Source of the DNA: Brevibacillus humidisoli
GTDB taxonomy: Bacteria > Bacillota > Bacilli > Brevibacillales > Brevibacillaceae
Length of the DNA stretch: 64,000 nt
Assembly: GCF_020923435.1 (NCBI RefSeq)
Contig: NZ_CP087263.1
Span: forward strand, 1-64,000
Direction of reading: 5' to 3'
Part shown: piece after piece, positions 8,186 through 18,731 of the stretch
Layout of the letters: every line of letters begins with the position of its first letter
Numbering within the stretch: the stretch's first letter is position 1
Notes under the pieces: model-generated
The model's database searches: none
What the model saw: the letters and a program-made list of their open reading frames with translations, nothing else
Told to the model about the DNA's origin: nothing
Translations under genes and position numbers: made by a program

Positions 8186-9883
8186 CTATTCCACGGCAAG
8201 ATGCCACCGTTTCAGCTTCTTTACCAGTGTTGAGTGATCCATTCCCAGATGCTGTGCGGCTTTTCGCAGCGAGCCATGCTTTTGGATCGCTTCCCGCACA
8301 ATCCGCTGCTCGAACTTTTCCACTCGTTCCTTCAGCGTCAGGGCCGTCCCGGGGGCGGTCGTCTGCTCGTAGATGTGCAGCGGCAGGTCGTGAGGTTCAA
8401 TCGTCTGTGAGGGGACAGAGACGATCATCCCTTCGATCAGGTTTTTCAGCTCCCTCACATTGCCGGGCCAGTGGTAGCTGCTCAGGATCGCCTTCGTCTC
8501 TGCCGCCAACTGCTTGTCGACGTGATATTGTTTGCAAAAGTAAGAGAAAAAGTGGTCGAGCAGCGCCCCTACGTCCTCTGCCCGCTCGGCCAAGGGAGGA
8601 ATGTGGATTTCTACCACCTGCAGACGGTAGTACAAGTCTTCGCGAAACGTTCCACGCCGAATCAGTGCTTTCAAGTTCTGGTTAGTAGCCGAGATAATCC
8701 GAATGTCCAGCTTGCGAACCGTGCTGCTGCCGATTCGCTGGATCTGTTTTTCCTGCAGGACCCGCAGTAGTTTTACCTGGAGGGGCAGGGGAAGCTCACC
8801 GATTTCATCCAGCATCACCGTTCCTTGATCGGCCAGTTCTAGAAGGCCGATTTTCCCTTCTTGGCGAGCCCCGGTAAACGCTCCTTTCTCGTATCCGAAC
8901 AACTCCGATTCCAGCAGCGTCTCTGGAATCGCTCCGCAGTTCACTTTGATAAACGGACGATCTTTTCGTTGGCTCAGGTCATGGATCAGGTTGGCGACCA
9001 CCTCTTTGCCCACACCGGAAGGACCGGTCAACAGAATGCTGGTGGGATAGGGTGCAACCTGCTGAACTTTGTTGAAAATCTGCTTCATCGGATTGCTGCG
9101 AAAGATGATCTTGTCATCCGAACTGCTGAACGAATAGGTATAGCGGTTCTGATTGATTTGCGAAAAGCTTTTCGCCTTCTCCATTTCCCGCTTCAGCTCA
9201 TTGAGATGGGTGATGTCTCTGACGCTGGTCACCACCATCTCAATCTCCCCGGAATCATTGAAAAAGGGATTGCCTGTGACGATGACATCTTTTTTTCCGC
9301 CGATCTTCTGCAAGATAGAGATGCATTTCTTTTTTTCCAGGACAAGCAGTGAGACCGACTGATCGAAATAACCCTGGCTGGTTAACTCGGCCATGTGCCG
9401 ACCGACCAACTCATCCCTGCGAAAGCCGGTAATCTCCTCGTACGCGGTGTTGACTAGCAGCGTAATGCCGTTCTTGTCCACTACGTAGATACCGTCCGTT
9501 GCACATTCGATGATCGTCTCCATTTGTTTAAACAAGGAGCGGTAGTGCTCCATCTCGGAGATGTCCTGTATCACGCCGATCGCACCGATCAGCCGGTCAT
9601 CTTCGTAGATCGGGGTGCGGTTGACCATACACTGGCGGCCGGCGATCTCCATCTTCACGCCGATCGAACGCTCCCCGCTTTGCAGCACTTTTGGCATCTG
9701 CGTGGTAGGGATCAGAGCCCGGATATCATGCCCCTCCCAGTTCTCGTCTTGAATGTTCAGCAGTTCTTTGGCCGAATCGTTGATTAAAAGAATCTTGCTC
9801 TCTGCATCGACGACGATCACGCCATTATGCATGGAAGAAAAGATACGTTCCCAAATCCGCTGTGTGACGATTGGCTGGTTCAT
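8186..9883 (-). CDS. Sigma-54-dependent enhancer-binding regulator, PAS-PAS-AAA+-TyrR-type HTH
   Basis: The 565-residue product is a bacterial enhancer-binding protein that opens sigma-54 promoters using ATP. Two PAS sensor domains lie at about residues 10-115 and 125-230. The AAA+ core has Walker A GPSGVGKE, the sigma-54 contact loop GAFTGA, and Walker B VMLDEIGEL. The C-terminal helix-turn-helix reads RKAAQHLGMDHSTLVKKLKRW, the TyrR/PhhR style. The ATG at 9883 sits eight bases after AAGGGAGG; a GTG-type start further upstream (9904) would overlap that site. It is divergent from the aldehyde dehydrogenase operon and almost certainly activates it through the paired sites between them. The PAS ligand is unknown. 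Confidence 0.93.
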   Translation of the reverse strand: MNQPIVTQRIWERIFSSMHNGVIVVDAESKILLINDSAKELLNIQDENWEGHDIRALIPTTQMPKVLQSGERSIGVKMEIAGRQCMVNRTPIYEDDRLIGAIGVIQDISEMEHYRSLFKQMETIIECATDGIYVVDKNGITLLVNTAYEEITGFRRDELVGRHMAELTSQGYFDQSVSLLVLEKKKCISILQKIGGKKDVIVTGNPFFNDSGEIEMVVTSVRDITHLNELKREMEKAKSFSQINQNRYTYSFSSSDDKIIFRSNPMKQIFNKVQQVAPYPTSILLTGPSGVGKEVVANLIHDLSQRKDRPFIKVNCGAIPETLLESELFGYEKGAFTGARQEGKIGLLELADQGTVMLDEIGELPLPLQVKLLRVLQEKQIQRIGSSTVRKLDIRIISATNQNLKALIRRGTFREDLYYRLQVVEIHIPPLAERAEDVGALLDHFFSYFCKQYHVDKQLAAETKAILSSYHWPGNVRELKNLIEGMIVSVPSQTIEPHDLPLHIYEQTTAPGTALTLKERVEKFEQRIVREAIQKHGSLRKAAQHLGMDHSTLVKKLKRWHLAVE

Positions 9884-9909
9884 TGCTGAAACCTCCCTTG
9901 CCATCGAAT

Positions 9910-10004
9910 GGTGAAGAATATCACCGTTCGGTGAATATAATCACCACTGGTTTTCTTCGCCTCTGGTTAGTGAAAACCCTGCATAGGCGGTGATTTTTAT
10001 CACC
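9910..10004. promoter_or_regulatory. Three GGTGA-N6-TCACC sites (enhancer of the divergent sigma-54 regulator)
   Basis: Exact copies of GGTGA-six bases-TCACC lie at 9910-9925, 9930-9945 and 9989-10004. The half-site spacing equals that of TyrR boxes (TGTAAA-N6-TTTACA), which fits the TyrR-type HTH of the adjacent regulator. The first two are centred 20 bp apart (two helical turns). The third is about 59 bp from the second and about 44 bp before the -24 element. The first lies 27 bp upstream of the regulator's ATG, so self-control is also possible. Confidence 0.8.
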
Positions 10005-10047
10005 ACTGTGTTTTTCAGAAGGCGTTCAAAACCGCGTTACATCCTGT

Positions 10048-10063
10048 TGGCATGGGGATTGCT
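10048..10063 (+). promoter_or_regulatory. Sigma-54 (-24/-12) promoter of the lactone/aldehyde operon
   Basis: TTGGCATGGGGATTGCTT contains the invariant GG (10049-10050) and GC (10061-10062) ten bases apart, close to the consensus TTGGCAC-N5-TTGCA. Transcription should begin near 10074, 39 bp before the aldehyde dehydrogenase ATG. Confidence 0.85.
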
Positions 10064-10112: not shown

Positions 10113-11546
10113 ATGAATGAAATGACAAAAGGGCTTTTTCTCAATGGGAAGTGGGTCGCCAGAGACAGGACATATCCACTGCACGCTCCGTACGATGGAA
10201 AACAGTTGGCCACGATCAGCATGGCCGATACCGACGATGTAAAACGGGCCATCGAAGGAGCTTATCAAGCGTACCAGACCATGCGCCAGATGCCGGCGCA
10301 CCAGCGTGCGGAGATCTTGTACCGCCTGGCCGACCTGTTGCAGGAGAGGAAGGAACAACTGGCCCGCATCGTCGCCGAGGAGGCTGGCAAACCGATCCGT
10401 ACCGCGCGAGCAGAGGTGGCCAGAACGATTGTTACCTACCGCTTTGCGGCAGAGGAAGCGAAACGGATCTACGGCGAAACAATCCCAATGGATGCAGCCC
10501 CGGGCGGCGAGCATCGGCTGGGGATGACCTGGCGGGAACCGTTGGGTGTTGTCGTGGCCATTACACCGTTTAACTTCCCGCTCAATCTGGTGGCTCATAA
10601 ACTGGGGCCCGCCTTTGCGGCAGGAAATACGGTCGTCTTGAAACCAGCCGAACAAACCCCGCTCAGTGCTTTGCAGATTGCGGAGCTTTTTCAGCAAGCT
10701 GGTCTCCCGGACGGAGCGCTGCAGGTACTGACTGGCAGCGGTCGTGAACTGAGCGATGCTCTGATAACCGACCAGCGGGTGAAAAAAGTGACCTTTACCG
10801 GCAGTGCTGCCGTCGGCAAGCTGATCAAAGCAAAGGCGGGGCTGCGAAAAGTGACGCTGGAGTTGGGCTCCAACTCGGCGTTGATCGTGGAGCCGGATGT
10901 TTCCTTGGATCAGATCATCCCGCGCTGCGTGGAGGGGGCATTTACGTATGCTGGTCAGGTATGTATCTCTTTGCAGCGGATTTACGTGCATGAATCGATC
11001 TACGAGCCGTTTAGCAGCGCTTTTATCGAACAGACCCGACGGCTGCAGGTAGGCGACCCGCTGTTAGAGACAACCGACATCAGCGCCGTGATCCATGAGC
11101 GGGAGGCGGAGCGCATCCAGTCGTGGATCGATCAGGCTGTGCAGGCGGGAGCGAGTCTTGGCTGTGGTGGAACGAGTGAAGGCTCACGGGTCACCCCAAC
11201 CGTTCTGCTGGATGTCACGCCAGATATGGCCGTCTCCTGCGAAGAGGCGTTCGCTCCCATCGTCTCTATCGTGCCCTACAAGGACTTGCCGGAAGCCATC
11301 AATCTGGTCAATGATTCCGTATACGGGCTAAACGTTGGCATCTACTCACGGGACATCGACCGTGCACTATATGCAGCGCGCCAGTTGGAGGCTGGTGGCG
11401 TGATTGTCAACGATATCCCTACGTTCCGCGTCGATCACATGCCATATGGCGGTGTAAAAGAAAGCGGTTACGGGCGTGAAGGGGTCAAGTATGCCATGCA
11501 AGAAATGACGGAAGTGAAGTTTGTATCGATCAAAACGAGCCTGTAA
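10113..11546 (+). CDS. NAD(P)-dependent aldehyde dehydrogenase
   Basis: The 477-residue cytoplasmic enzyme oxidises an aldehyde to its acid. Visible motifs are TPFNFPLNL (active-site Asn), VVLKPAEQTP, VTFTGSAAVG (cofactor fold), LELGSN with the general-base Glu, and GQVCISLQR with the nucleophile Cys. The LELGSN variant is common in lactaldehyde and semialdehyde dehydrogenases. It is the first gene of a sigma-54 operon, behind GGAGAGGAGGAAAG. With a lactonase and an alcohol dehydrogenase following, succinate semialdehyde is a plausible substrate (inference from the Agrobacterium AttK/BlcA analogy). Exact specificity cannot be read from sequence. Confidence 0.93.
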   Translation: MNEMTKGLFLNGKWVARDRTYPLHAPYDGKQLATISMADTDDVKRAIEGAYQAYQTMRQMPAHQRAEILYRLADLLQERKEQLARIVAEEAGKPIRTARAEVARTIVTYRFAAEEAKRIYGETIPMDAAPGGEHRLGMTWREPLGVVVAITPFNFPLNLVAHKLGPAFAAGNTVVLKPAEQTPLSALQIAELFQQAGLPDGALQVLTGSGRELSDALITDQRVKKVTFTGSAAVGKLIKAKAGLRKVTLELGSNSALIVEPDVSLDQIIPRCVEGAFTYAGQVCISLQRIYVHESIYEPFSSAFIEQTRRLQVGDPLLETTDISAVIHEREAERIQSWIDQAVQAGASLGCGGTSEGSRVTPTVLLDVTPDMAVSCEEAFAPIVSIVPYKDLPEAINLVNDSVYGLNVGIYSRDIDRALYAARQLEAGGVIVNDIPTFRVDHMPYGGVKESGYGREGVKYAMQEMTEVKFVSIKTSL

Positions 11547-11591: not shown

Positions 11592-12440
11592 ATGTCTAAT
11601 GTTGTGAAAGCCAAACCGAAGCTGTACGTACTGGATAATGGTCGGATGCGAATGGATAAGAATTGGATGATCGCCATGCACAATCCGGCCACGATCCACA
11701 ATCCCCATGTACCGACTCAGTTCGTCGAATTTCCGATTTATACCGTGTTGATCGATCACCCGGAAGGGAAAATCTTGTTTGACACAGCCTGCAATCCCGA
11801 TTCGATGGGCGCACAAGGTCGCTGGGCGGAATCGACACAGCAGATGTTTCCCTGGACCGCCAGCGAAGAGTGTTATCTGCACAATCGATTGGAGCAACTG
11901 AAAGTGAGACCGGAGGAGATCAAGTACGTGGTCGCCTCCCACTTGCACCTCGACCATGCAGGATGTCTGGAGATGTTCACCAATGCCACGATTATTGTGC
12001 ATGAGGATGAGTTGAACGGAACGCTGCAAAGTTATGCCCGCAACCAAAAAGAGGGAGCTTACATCTGGGCGGATATTGATGCCTGGATCAAAAACAACTT
12101 GCAGTGGCGTACGGTAAAGCGGGGAGAAGACAACTTGAAGCTGGCGGAGGGAGTACATGTGCTCAACTTTGGCAGCGGGCACGCCTGGGGGATGATCGGG
12201 CTGCATCTGCAAATGCCGGAGACAGGCGGCATCATCCTGGCGTCCGATGCTGTCTACACGGCGGAAAGTTACGGACCGCCGATCAAACCGCCAGGCATTA
12301 TCTACGATTCGCTTGGCTATGCCAACACAGTGGAAAAGATTCGCCGGATAGCCACAGAGACCAACTCCCAGGTCTGGTTCGGCCATGATGCGGAACAGTT
12401 TAAGAAATTCCGCAAGTCGACCGAAGGCTGCTACGAGTAA
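11592..12440 (+). CDS. Metallo-beta-lactamase-fold lactonase, AttM/AiiA-like
   Basis: The 282-residue hydrolase carries the dinuclear zinc signature SHLHLDHAG (HxHxDH) at about residues 117-125. Further metal ligands lie in GSGHAWGMIGLH and ASDAVYT, and a final GHDAEQF provides the last His. Length and motif spacing match the AHL-lactonase / gamma-butyrolactonase group (AiiA, AttM/BlcC). It should open a lactone ring. It lies 45 bp after the aldehyde dehydrogenase and 15 bp before an iron alcohol dehydrogenase, so its product could be a hydroxy acid for oxidation by the neighbours. Quorum-signal cleavage is an alternative role. It starts with ATG behind GAGGAGGAATAGG. Confidence 0.88.
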   Translation: MSNVVKAKPKLYVLDNGRMRMDKNWMIAMHNPATIHNPHVPTQFVEFPIYTVLIDHPEGKILFDTACNPDSMGAQGRWAESTQQMFPWTASEECYLHNRLEQLKVRPEEIKYVVASHLHLDHAGCLEMFTNATIIVHEDELNGTLQSYARNQKEGAYIWADIDAWIKNNLQWRTVKRGEDNLKLAEGVHVLNFGSGHAWGMIGLHLQMPETGGIILASDAVYTAESYGPPIKPPGIIYDSLGYANTVEKIRRIATETNSQVWFGHDAEQFKKFRKSTEGCYE

Positions 12441-12455
12441 GCAAGGGGGATTCAG

Positions 12456-13636
12456 ATGGAAATGGCCAAACTGGTGTTTACGCCACTTAGTTATACCGGG
12501 TGGGGGCACTTCAGCAATTGCTCTCAGAAGTAAATCGATTTTCTCCCCAGCGCATCCTGGTGGTGACAGACCCGACCCTGCAGCAGATCGGGTTGGTGGA
12601 ACAGGTCGTCGCCCCGCTTCGGAAAGCGCAGTATGATGTAGACGTGTATACAGATGTGCTGCCGGAACCACCGCTGGAGACGGGAGAGCGACTGGTCAGC
12701 TACACCAGAGACGGCAAGTTTGACCTGGTGATTGGTCTTGGCGGGGGCAGCGCACTGGATTTGGCCAAGCTGGCTGCCGTACTGGCCGTACATGAGGGAG
12801 CGGTCGAAGAGTACCTCAACCTGACGGGGTCGCGCCAGATCGAGCAGAAAGGCTTGCCCAAAATCTTGATTCCCACAACCTCCGGCACGGGCTCGGAAGT
12901 GACCAATATCGCCGTCCTATCCCTGCAGACGACCAAAGACGTGGTGACCCACGATTATCTGCTTGCCGACGCCGCGATTGTAGACCCGCAAGTAACGGTG
13001 TCCGTTCCTCCCCGGGTCACGGCTGCCACCGGTATCGACGCACTGACCCATGCGGTAGAGGCTTATGTATCGGTCCAGGCCAGCCCGGCGACTGACGGCT
13101 TGGCCCTGCAGGCGATGCGGCTGATCTCCCGCTCGATTCGTCGGGCGGTAGAGAACGGAGCGGACCGGGAAGCGCGCTCGGATATGAGCTACGGAAGCTA
13201 TCTGGCCGGCCTGGCTTTCTTTAATGCCGGGGTAGCGGGGGTGCATGCGCTCGCTTATCCGTTGGGCGGCCAGTTTCACCTCGCACACGGCGAGTCTAAC
13301 GCCGTCCTGCTTCCCTATGTGATGGGCTATATCCGTCACAGCTGCCCCAAACGAATGGCTGATATGCTGAATGCGCTGGGCGGAAACTCAAGCTATCTGT
13401 CGGAGACAGAAGCTTCTTACAAGTGCGTCGAAGCATTGGAACGGCTGGTCGGGGATGTCGGCATACCCCGTACGCTAGGTGGCTTCAACATCCCGGAAAC
13501 GGCCCTGGAGAGCCTTACCCAAGACGGGTTGAAACAAAAACGGCTGCTGGCGCGGAGTCCGTACCCGCTGCAGGAACATGATATCCGTGCCATCTACCAG
13601 TCGGCATTTGAAGGGATCGTTAGAGAGCCTGACTAG
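12456..13636 (+). pseudogene. Iron-containing alcohol dehydrogenase with an apparent one-base frameshift
   Basis: The ATG at 12456, seven bases after AAGGGGG, starts a good family N-terminus (MEMAKLVFTPLSYTGW) that hits a stop at 12533. The rest of the protein (378 codons) is open in another frame from a GTG at 12500 that has no ribosome site. Adding one G to the five-G run at 12502-12506 would join them as YTGWGALQQLL. The body is complete: GGGSALDLAK, PTTSGTGSEVTN, and the iron ligands in GIDALTHAVE, VAGVHALAYPLGGQFHLAHG. It would interconvert an alcohol (possibly 4-hydroxybutyrate) and an aldehyde. The shift may be a sequencing error, slippage control, or a true lesion. Confidence 0.8.
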
Positions 13637-16355: not shown

Positions 16356-17554
16356 TTAATAACAAGCTTCGTATAAGGCCAGTACATCATCGGTATACAG
16401 AGGGCGGGAACTGCTGATATGATCGCTTCCCTGACCGCCAATGCGCACCGATTCCTGGGCCATCACCGCCAATGAGTCGCGTGAGATGGCAAAGTCGGAC
16501 AGCCGCTGCGTGATGCCGATCCGGGCAAACCAGGCAGATACCGCTTCGATGGTCGCTTCTGCGGCGACACGTTCGTTGCTTTCGGTTACCCCGAAACACT
16601 CTCTGCCCATCCGAGCCAACCGTTCGGGACGGTCTTCGAGGATCACCTGACGGAAATACGGGATCGCCAGAATGGCCAAACCCCGTCCGTGGGCAATGTC
16701 GTAAAAGCCGCTTACCGTATGCTCTACCTTGTGCAGGGGGTAGCCGACGTTGCGGCCGGACAGCGTAAAGGGACTGATCGCCAGGGTGCTGGTCCAGAGC
16801 AGTGTGGAGCGTGCTTCTTCATGGCTTGGCTCTTCCATCGCCACGGAGGCAAAACGAACCACCTGGCGGATCAGCGACTCTGTGAAACCGTCCTGTACGG
16901 GCGTGCTGGCTCTGCTGATCAGGTAGGCTTCAAACAGATGGGAAAATATATCAGCAGAAGCTTCCGCTGTCACATGGGGTGGTACAGTGTACGTCAGCGA
17001 CGGATCGAGAATGGCCACTTTGGGAAAGAGGCCCGGTCCGGAAATGGAGGACTTCTCATGCGACTCCCAGTGCGTCAGCACACTGATGCTGTTCGCTTCC
17101 GAGCCAGTTGCTGCAACCGTCGGGATGGTGATCAGCGGCAGCGCCTGTTGGACCGGCACCAACTGTTTGGCGGTACCGGAGGGGTTGCCCCGCATATAGT
17201 CATAGATCGGACGGCCAGACAAAGCAGCGGCGGCGATTGCCTTGGCCGCATCCATCACTGAACCGCCGCCTACCGCAATCACACCATCGCAGCCTTCTTC
17301 ACGGGCGATGCGGGCTGCGCTGTCAACGGTCGTGGTACGCGGATTGGGCTCTACGCCTTCAAACAGGACGTAAGCAACTTGTGCCGATTGCAGCCGTTCA
17401 CAGATCCGCTCCAACAAACCGGTTTTTTGGCCGAACTGCCACCGGTGACAAGCAGAACCTTTTCTCCCAATTGCTTGGCCTCGCCCCCGATCCGGTCTAC
17501 TTCACCCACGCCAAACAGGATTCGGGTGGGAAAAGAGAGTTCAAAAGGAAACAC
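16356..17554 (-). pseudogene. Second iron-containing alcohol dehydrogenase, apparent one-base frameshift
   Basis: A GTG at 17554, behind AAGGGGTGATTC, starts a normal N-terminus (FPFELSFPTRILFGVGEVDR, then VLLVTGGSSAKK). The frame then runs into a stop at 17351. The remainder (353 codons from 17417) is open in another frame, continuing with LLERICERLQSA. One extra A in the six-A run at about 17430-17435 (minus strand AAAAAA) restores the enzyme. The body has GGGSVMDAAK, PTVAATGSEANS, and iron-ligand segments ADIFSHLFEAY and HKVEHTVSGFYDIAHG. It resembles the butanol-dehydrogenase branch. It is upstream of the M29 gene and near a truncated IS element. Whether the lesion is real cannot be told here. 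Confidence 0.8.
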
Positions 17555-17666: not shown

Positions 17667-18731
17667 CTAGCCCGCATCAGCTATGACGGTGTTTGGCAGC
17701 TTGCCGAACTGTGATTTTATTTTCTCCAGATGAGGGATGAGGCAGCGTGTATCAGTTGGCCGCTGATGGACACTGTAGCCGAGAATGAATTGATTTTCGG
17801 TACCGATCTGAACGTTGTAACCCGGCTTGAGCTGGCCGTTTCGCATGTGGTCTTCTTTCATCCTCATAAACGTAGCATCATGGTCCGTTTTGCTGTAGCT
17901 GTTTCGCTTGCCTAAAATCGTCTCATGCGTCTCATACTTTTGGAGGCGAGGAAGCAGATCCTTGCGGAGTGTGCGAACCGCCTTCTTTAGTGGCTTGTCT
18001 TTTGGCTTCTTCTGCAGGCGCTCTTCCAATTGCTTGACGACATTCTCCAGCTTTTCACTGGTGATGGCAGAGGACTCGCCCAGTTCGTGAAGATCCTTAC
18101 CCCCGTGTGCCCCTTCTTCTTGCTTCTCCGCTTCCTCAATGGCAGCGAACAAGGTCTGGACTTTCTCTTGGAGCTTGGCTTTGTGCTTGACGACAGCTTT
18201 TCCCCAAACAAATGTATACCGGTTGGCATTGGCTTCGATCTTGGTGCCGTCCACAAAGTAATGCTCCAGTTGTATGTAATTCTCCTCAACCAGAAATGGA
18301 AGAACTGCGGTACATACGGTTTCTAGCACGGTTTTCATTCGTTCTGAGCGAAACCGGTTGATGGTGCGGAAGTCCGGACGTTGTCTGCCTGCGATCCACA
18401 TGAACATCATGTTTTCACGGACGGCCTTGGCAATCTGGCGAGAGGAGTAGATACGCTGGGTGTAGGCGTATATGATGATTTTGGTGAGCATCTTGGGGTG
18501 GTAGCTGTTACGTCCGCCTCCGGGGTAAGCCGCATCGAAGATGGCGTCGTCGAGACGATTGACGGCGGCATTGACCACACGAACGAGATGATTGGCGGGA
18601 ATGTCTTCTTCTAAATCCATTGGTAAGTAGAGTTGATCCATGGTATATTGAATGTACAAAGAAACCGTCTCCTTTTTGTAAATGGTTGGTGGTACTTCCA
18701 TTTTACCAAAAGGCGGTTTCTTTTGTTTCAT
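17667..18731 (-). pseudogene. IS1182-family transposase, C-terminus missing
   Basis: There are 354 codons of a transposase normally around 450 or more. The N-terminal DUF772 domain is intact ([22 protein letters not shown], given here in part: [11 protein letters not shown]) with [13 protein letters not shown]. The DDE catalytic region begins with [17 protein letters not shown] and continues to [15 protein letters not shown] and NTVIADAG. The frame then stops exactly where GYGSEEN-type sequence with the last acidic residue would follow. A charged coiled segment lies at about residues 210-290. It should be inactive for transposition. Confidence 0.85.

Follow-up and report, generated by a model that had tools for sequence, protein, structure and literature searches.

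We propose that three exact copies of the dyad GGTGA-N6-TCACC in the 64-kb stretch of DNA analysed here (the window) are very probably the upstream activating sites of the adjacent sigma54 enhancer-binding regulator, through which it would switch on a lactonase operon from a sigma54 promoter (Table 1). The regulator almost certainly binds the three sites, judging from the sequences compared below; the sequence of the sites, their conservation, their spacing and their dependence on the presence of the regulator and on its recognition helix all enter into this link. The exact pattern occurs three times in the window compared to a mean of 0.06 in shuffled sequence, and none of 100 shuffles reached three. 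The original prediction of three sites with identical half-sites, the first two 20 bp apart and all next to a -24/-12 promoter, held up: the three copies are the only ones in the window, and the promoter element keeps its position in relatives. That conservation carries the promoter call, because the -24/-12 pattern was found six times in the window against 5.2 expected, which is chance level, and a lone match is not significant. Counted over 69 sites, the arms read (T)GGTGA/TCACC(A). The dyads lie about 70-160 bp upstream of the inferred transcription start and are helically phased, as is characteristic of sigma54 upstream activating sites.

Table 1. Predicted operator sites, promoter and genes of the regulator-lactonase region, in window positions
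Feature	Position	Strand	Evidence
Predicted distal operator site 1, GGTGAAGAATATCACC	9910..9925	.	Exact match; distal-pair spacing of 19-20 bp kept in relatives
Predicted distal operator site 2, GGTGAATATAATCACC	9930..9945	.	Exact match; 20 bp from site 1
Predicted proximal operator site 3, GGTGATTTTTATCACC	9989..10004	.	Exact match; distance of 59 bp both to site 2 and to the -24 element
Operon promoter of the -24/-12 (sigma54) type, TGGCATGGGGATTGC	10048..10062	+	TGGCAT-N5-TTGC; one mismatch to TGGCAC-N5-TTGC; matching element in relatives
Sigma54 enhancer-binding regulator, PAS-PAS-AAA+(GAFTGA)-HTH_50, recognition helix DHSTLVKK	8186..9904	-	Domain and motif matches
Aldehyde dehydrogenase, operon gene 1	10113..11546	+	PF00171, 5e-167; under all NCBIfam equivalog cut-offs
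AhlS/GcL-family lactonase	11592..12440	+	NF047976, 561 bits against a cut-off of 475; nearest solved structure GcL (6n9q)
Fe-containing alcohol dehydrogenase	12500..13636	+	PF00465/PF25137; frame seems to begin at ATG 12457

The remaining genome outside the window contains 11 further exact sites, 10 of them inside long open frames. No sigma54-like element was found within 400 bp of any of the 11, and on these grounds we rejected a wider regulon in this genome. A repeated dyad was also sought at paralogous activators, where no clear shared operator emerged.

The regulator has an AAA+ domain (PF00158, 9e-71) with intact GAFTGA and Walker A (GPSGVGK) motifs, and the genome encodes sigma54 (rpoN; PF04552, 219.8 bits). 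The ATG at 9883 is likely the true start of the regulator gene since a GGGAGG ribosome-binding site precedes it. The TyrR-type helix-turn-helix (HTH) that had been assigned to the protein was borne out by an HTH_50 match (PF18024, 43.3 bits against a cut-off of 27) and by the best solved match of the domain, 1g2h, a TyrR homologue (E 0.002). The broader likeness to TyrR stood in part. The sites share with TyrR boxes (TGTAAA-N6-TTTACA; PMC4374768) the HTH type that would read them, the N6 spacer and the essential G-N14-C pair, which runs from the first G to the last C of GGTGA-N6-TCACC. However, the arms TGTAAA/TTTACA agree with the GGTGA sites at three of six positions per arm, and the protein is not TyrR, scoring 283 bits on the TyrR profile (NF008085) against a cut-off of 576. 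TyrR acts at sigma70 promoters with aromatic amino acids (PMC4374768), whereas the window regulator has two PAS domains and is of the sigma54 type. The PrdR profile NF041552 is its best NCBIfam match, and at 484 bits against a cut-off of 795 the regulator is not PrdR either. Several regulator lineages lack the first PAS domain, as judged from protein lengths and a domain check at one locus (L086), suggesting that the second, adjoining the AAA+ domain, is the better sensor candidate.

The layout resembles that of GcsR from Pseudomonas aeruginosa (PMC4894688), a TyrR-like sigma54 activator with three 18-bp dyads of similar geometry upstream of the RpoN promoter of a catabolic operon, for which activation from the three dyads by a hexamer and looping has been proposed. 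GcsR differs in its site (TGTAACG-N4-CGTTCCG), its target (glycine cleavage) and its Gram-negative host. NorR (PMC2941729) also has three sites in a divergent intergenic region as a hexamer scaffold for a sigma54 promoter, and activation of the sigma54 polymerase by looping from the hexamer on its three enhancer sites is established; its sensor, a GAF domain for NO, and its site sequence are different. PrdR and the activators of Clostridiales provide a parallel for sigma54 control of catabolism in Bacillota. As described in the main text of PMC6615313, clostridial sigma54 activators mostly use TGT-N10-12-ACA sites; the GGTGA motif is absent from that main text, and the motif table sits in the supplement.

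We envisage that each dyad would be bound by one regulator dimer, the DHST helix of its TyrR-type HTH reading GGTG-N8-CACC. By analogy with NorR and GcsR, three dimers could nucleate a hexamer that loops to the sigma54-RNA polymerase at the 10048 promoter and remodels it, and the divergent aldehyde dehydrogenase-lactonase-alcohol dehydrogenase operon would be turned on. The signal is probably a lactone or a lactone breakdown product, with the AAA+-proximal PAS domain as its sensor.

To follow the sites across relatives, we collected 90 loci with distinct upstream regions, consisting of lactonase and regulator relatives fetched by protein together with the genomes from the paired-site search described below; a few of the 47 regulator-linked loci entered through that search. 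An exact site within 600 bp upstream was found in 41 of the 47 regulator-adjacent loci, rising to 43 of 47 once L033 and L163, mis-scored at first because a truncated first gene had created an operon-start artefact, were corrected. None of the 43 lactonase loci without an adjacent regulator had such a site. The -24/-12 element was present in 45 of 47 regulator-linked loci, both exceptions being artefacts of operon-start definition, compared to 0 of 43 others. The corresponding Fisher values (~1e-19 for exact sites and ~1e-23 for the -24/-12 element), counted by locus with relatedness ignored, overstate the evidence because the loci are related by descent and the site search itself contributed a few of the 47. 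The motif, which the original prediction had proposed to look for upstream of orthologous operons, is present at nearly all of those with the regulator and at none without it. Imperfect sites were recovered as well: L048 and L050 have two one-mismatch sites each, and L130 has GGTGT-N6-GCACC twice, 20 bp apart. Regulator exchange is seen in two Lysinibacillus loci (L105, L099), where the aldehyde dehydrogenase-lactonase-Fe-alcohol dehydrogenase set is without a sigma54 regulator and is preceded by a LacI-type one. Two Paenibacillus loci (L076, L052) have the lactonase without the sigma54 regulator; upstream lies a divergently transcribed regulator of the HxlR type, an assignment that was tested with Pfam in L076.

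The position of the sites bears on the possibility that they are mainly autoregulatory, with the regulator repressing its own gene. Site 1 is located just upstream of the ribosome-binding site of the regulator, at 27 bp from its probable start codon (9883), and the regulator is divergent from the operon in most loci, both of which fit such a role. In L036, L040 and L042, however, the regulator lies upstream in the same direction as the operon, and the exact sites remain between its stop codon and the operon, with none ahead of the regulator gene; this location indicates that the sites serve the operon, whatever added effect they have on the regulator gene. In addition, the distance is fixed relative to the -24 element of the operon, and a sigma70-like promoter of the regulator gene was sought and not found. 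We consider autoregulation improbable as the main role and rejected it on the strength of the three co-directional loci.

The sites were also associated with the recognition helix of the regulator. Over the class-wide and phylum-wide sets, GGTG-N8-CACC sites accompanied 18 of 18 regulators with the helix DHST and 0 of 36 with other helices. In the class-wide set, whose regulators were chosen by protein, GGTGA-N6-TCACC was found with 14 of 14 DHST helices and with none of 13 others (SQSA, DQST, HHTT and similar). In the phylum-wide set, drawn by HTH similarity, GGTG-N8-CACC lay upstream of a -24/-12 element in 4 of 4 DHST cases and 0 of 23 others, a result that is supportive and not independent proof, because the relaxed pattern was defined after L130, L191 and L194 had been seen and two of the four DHST cases (L198 and L199) have a single site each. 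The fifth base is A where DHST is followed by KK, and A, C, T or G where it is followed by RK. One locus with regulator and lactonase (L167) has an intact -24/-12 element and operon yet only degraded half-sites; its helix is HHTT instead of DHST, and it is possibly a case of operator-helix co-evolution. Comparison supports the idea that the dyad is the operator of this regulator family, with its scope narrowed to activators carrying the helix DHSTLVKK or DHSTLIKK.

We also evaluated whether the sites might bind another transcription factor encoded elsewhere, for example a lactone-catabolism repressor, since binding by the adjacent regulator is itself a prediction. Such a factor would not account for the loss of the sites from loci that lack the activator, some of which have a LacI-type or HxlR-type regulator close by, or for a site sequence that tracks the recognition helix of the activator across the phylum, and we regard it as highly improbable. 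The data favor the adjacent activator as the protein that would use these sites.

The spacing of the sites is conserved in relatives, across dozens of bacterial species. The distal pair is separated by 19-20 bp. In 40 of 44 cases the distance from the proximal site to the -24 element falls into one of three classes, 57-60 bp (as in the window), 67-70 bp or 76-78 bp, which differ by roughly a helical turn. Distances from the distal to the proximal sites group at 46, 53-59, 67-71 and 77-78 bp, and unusual site geometry was observed in L044, L047, L051 and L107. The Rayleigh values for helical phasing were computed ignoring relatedness. Spacing in helical steps fits DNA sites better than RNA hairpins or terminators, a reading of the dyads to which we give almost no credence and which, for terminators, we rejected: a simple scan marks sites 2 and 3 (+ strand) as terminator-like, but the stems are just 5-6 bp, and the dyads are not in the operon mRNA because they lie upstream of the operon promoter.

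Pairs of sites at a distance of 25-55 bp were sought in 399 Bacilli genomes, regardless of the encoded proteins, with the reversed pattern as the control. Nine places were recovered, eight of them between a regulator and a lactonase and the ninth with neither; the reversed pattern yielded none in these genomes. When the search was repeated on 398 genomes drawn from the whole phylum, it returned the window and a single genome from outside the Bacilli. In the latter, the sites are located just after a regulator of 44% identity with the helix DHSTLVKK. Next come a -24/-12 element and a lactonase-free operon whose genes encode a putative membrane protein, an Fe-alcohol dehydrogenase and an aldehyde ferredoxin oxidoreductase. 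Recent shared descent of the entire intergenic region, without function, is scarcely credible as the cause of the conservation: the loci are homologous, but the sites persist in number and spacing amid nearly random flanking positions, and the one further genome of the phylum search belongs to another class and carries a different operon. Outside the Bacilli, L186 and L218 have DHST-type activators and GGTG-N8-CACC sites upstream of operons for an Fe-alcohol dehydrogenase and an aldehyde ferredoxin oxidoreductase.

The window operon, transcribed divergently from the regulator, combines lactonase, alcohol dehydrogenase and aldehyde dehydrogenase, a gene content like that of BlcABC (AttKLM) of Agrobacterium (PMC5924552). 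BlcABC breaks down gamma-butyrolactone through hydroxybutyrate and succinic semialdehyde, and its lactonase also cuts AHLs; it is controlled by the repressor BlcR, whereas the window operon adjoins a sigma54 activator and not a BlcR-type repressor. The Fe-alcohol dehydrogenase N-terminus (MEMAKLVFTPLSYTGWG, as in an orthologue) is read in another frame from ATG 12457, with an apparent shift in a G run near 12500; either an error in sequencing or a genuine lesion may explain this frame shift at 12457-12510. A second Fe-alcohol dehydrogenase (16356-17500, - strand) also looks frameshifted, its N-terminus being out of frame and readable just upstream, and is adjoined by a transposase with a DUF772 domain (17667-18731). 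Positions 52-786 hold the 3' part of a group II intron maturase (RVT_1, GIIM).

The closest solved structures to the window lactonase are GcL and AaL (PDB 6n9q and 6cgy; PMC11423328, PMC6062542), which belong to the same family. Both papers treat the enzymes in isolation, and the word "operon" is absent from them; our literature search found no regulator or operator described for the AhlS/GcL lactonase family, and absence there is not proof. The lactonase of Parageobacillus caldoxylosilyticus NBRC 107762 (L034) is GcL itself, 100% identical over all 282 residues, and this native locus of the engineered enzyme GcL has the same regulator, exact sites and promoter as the window.

No substrate can be read from the protein families because the window aldehyde dehydrogenase and Fe-alcohol dehydrogenase score under every curated equivalog cut-off, and assignment by this route was dropped. 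The operon content suggests lactone or hydroxyacid catabolism similar to BlcABC. Most likely, though less certainly than the regulatory steps, a lactone would be opened and the hydroxyacid oxidised via the semialdehyde to the diacid. In L086 and similar loci, the same regulator and sites precede a lactonase, a Zn-type alcohol dehydrogenase and an SSADH-like aldehyde dehydrogenase (636 bits against the SSADH cut-off of 646). In that branch, unrelated or distant enzymes that carry out the same types of reaction take the place of both oxidoreductases, which supports this lactone-hydroxyacid-semialdehyde-diacid route. We consider lactone catabolism a probable role for the operon, and gamma-butyrolactone itself a tentative candidate for the substrate; AaL hydrolyses it with a kcat/KM of 1.4e5 per M per s (PMC6062542). 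A paper on Geobacillus evolution on 1,4-butanediol and adipate mentions a sigma54 cluster with an Fe-dehydrogenase and an aldehyde dehydrogenase (PMC13135583), whose equivalence to the lactonase operon is not established.

One recent paper favours quorum quenching as the native function of GcL (PMC11423328). Contrary to that role, a conserved sigma54 catabolic switch together with aldehyde and alcohol dehydrogenases points to lactones as nutrients and suggests that the GcL/AhlS-type lactonase normally works within a lactone-eating pathway. We give roughly even weight to a broader proposal, in which a subfamily of sigma54 activators in Bacillota follows a code (DHST for GGTG-N8-CACC, with the K or R of DHSTxxK/R going with the fifth base), the GcL/AhlS operon is the main target in Bacilli, and the lactonases evolved as lactone-catabolic enzymes with AHL cleavage secondary. 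The GcL, AaL and AhlS lactonases are anti-virulence tools, and a regulator, an operator and a promoter are now named for testing their role and finding the inducer. The helix-operator pairing would make the target operons of many unannotated activators predictable, and the regulator-operator pair could serve as a lactone biosensor part.
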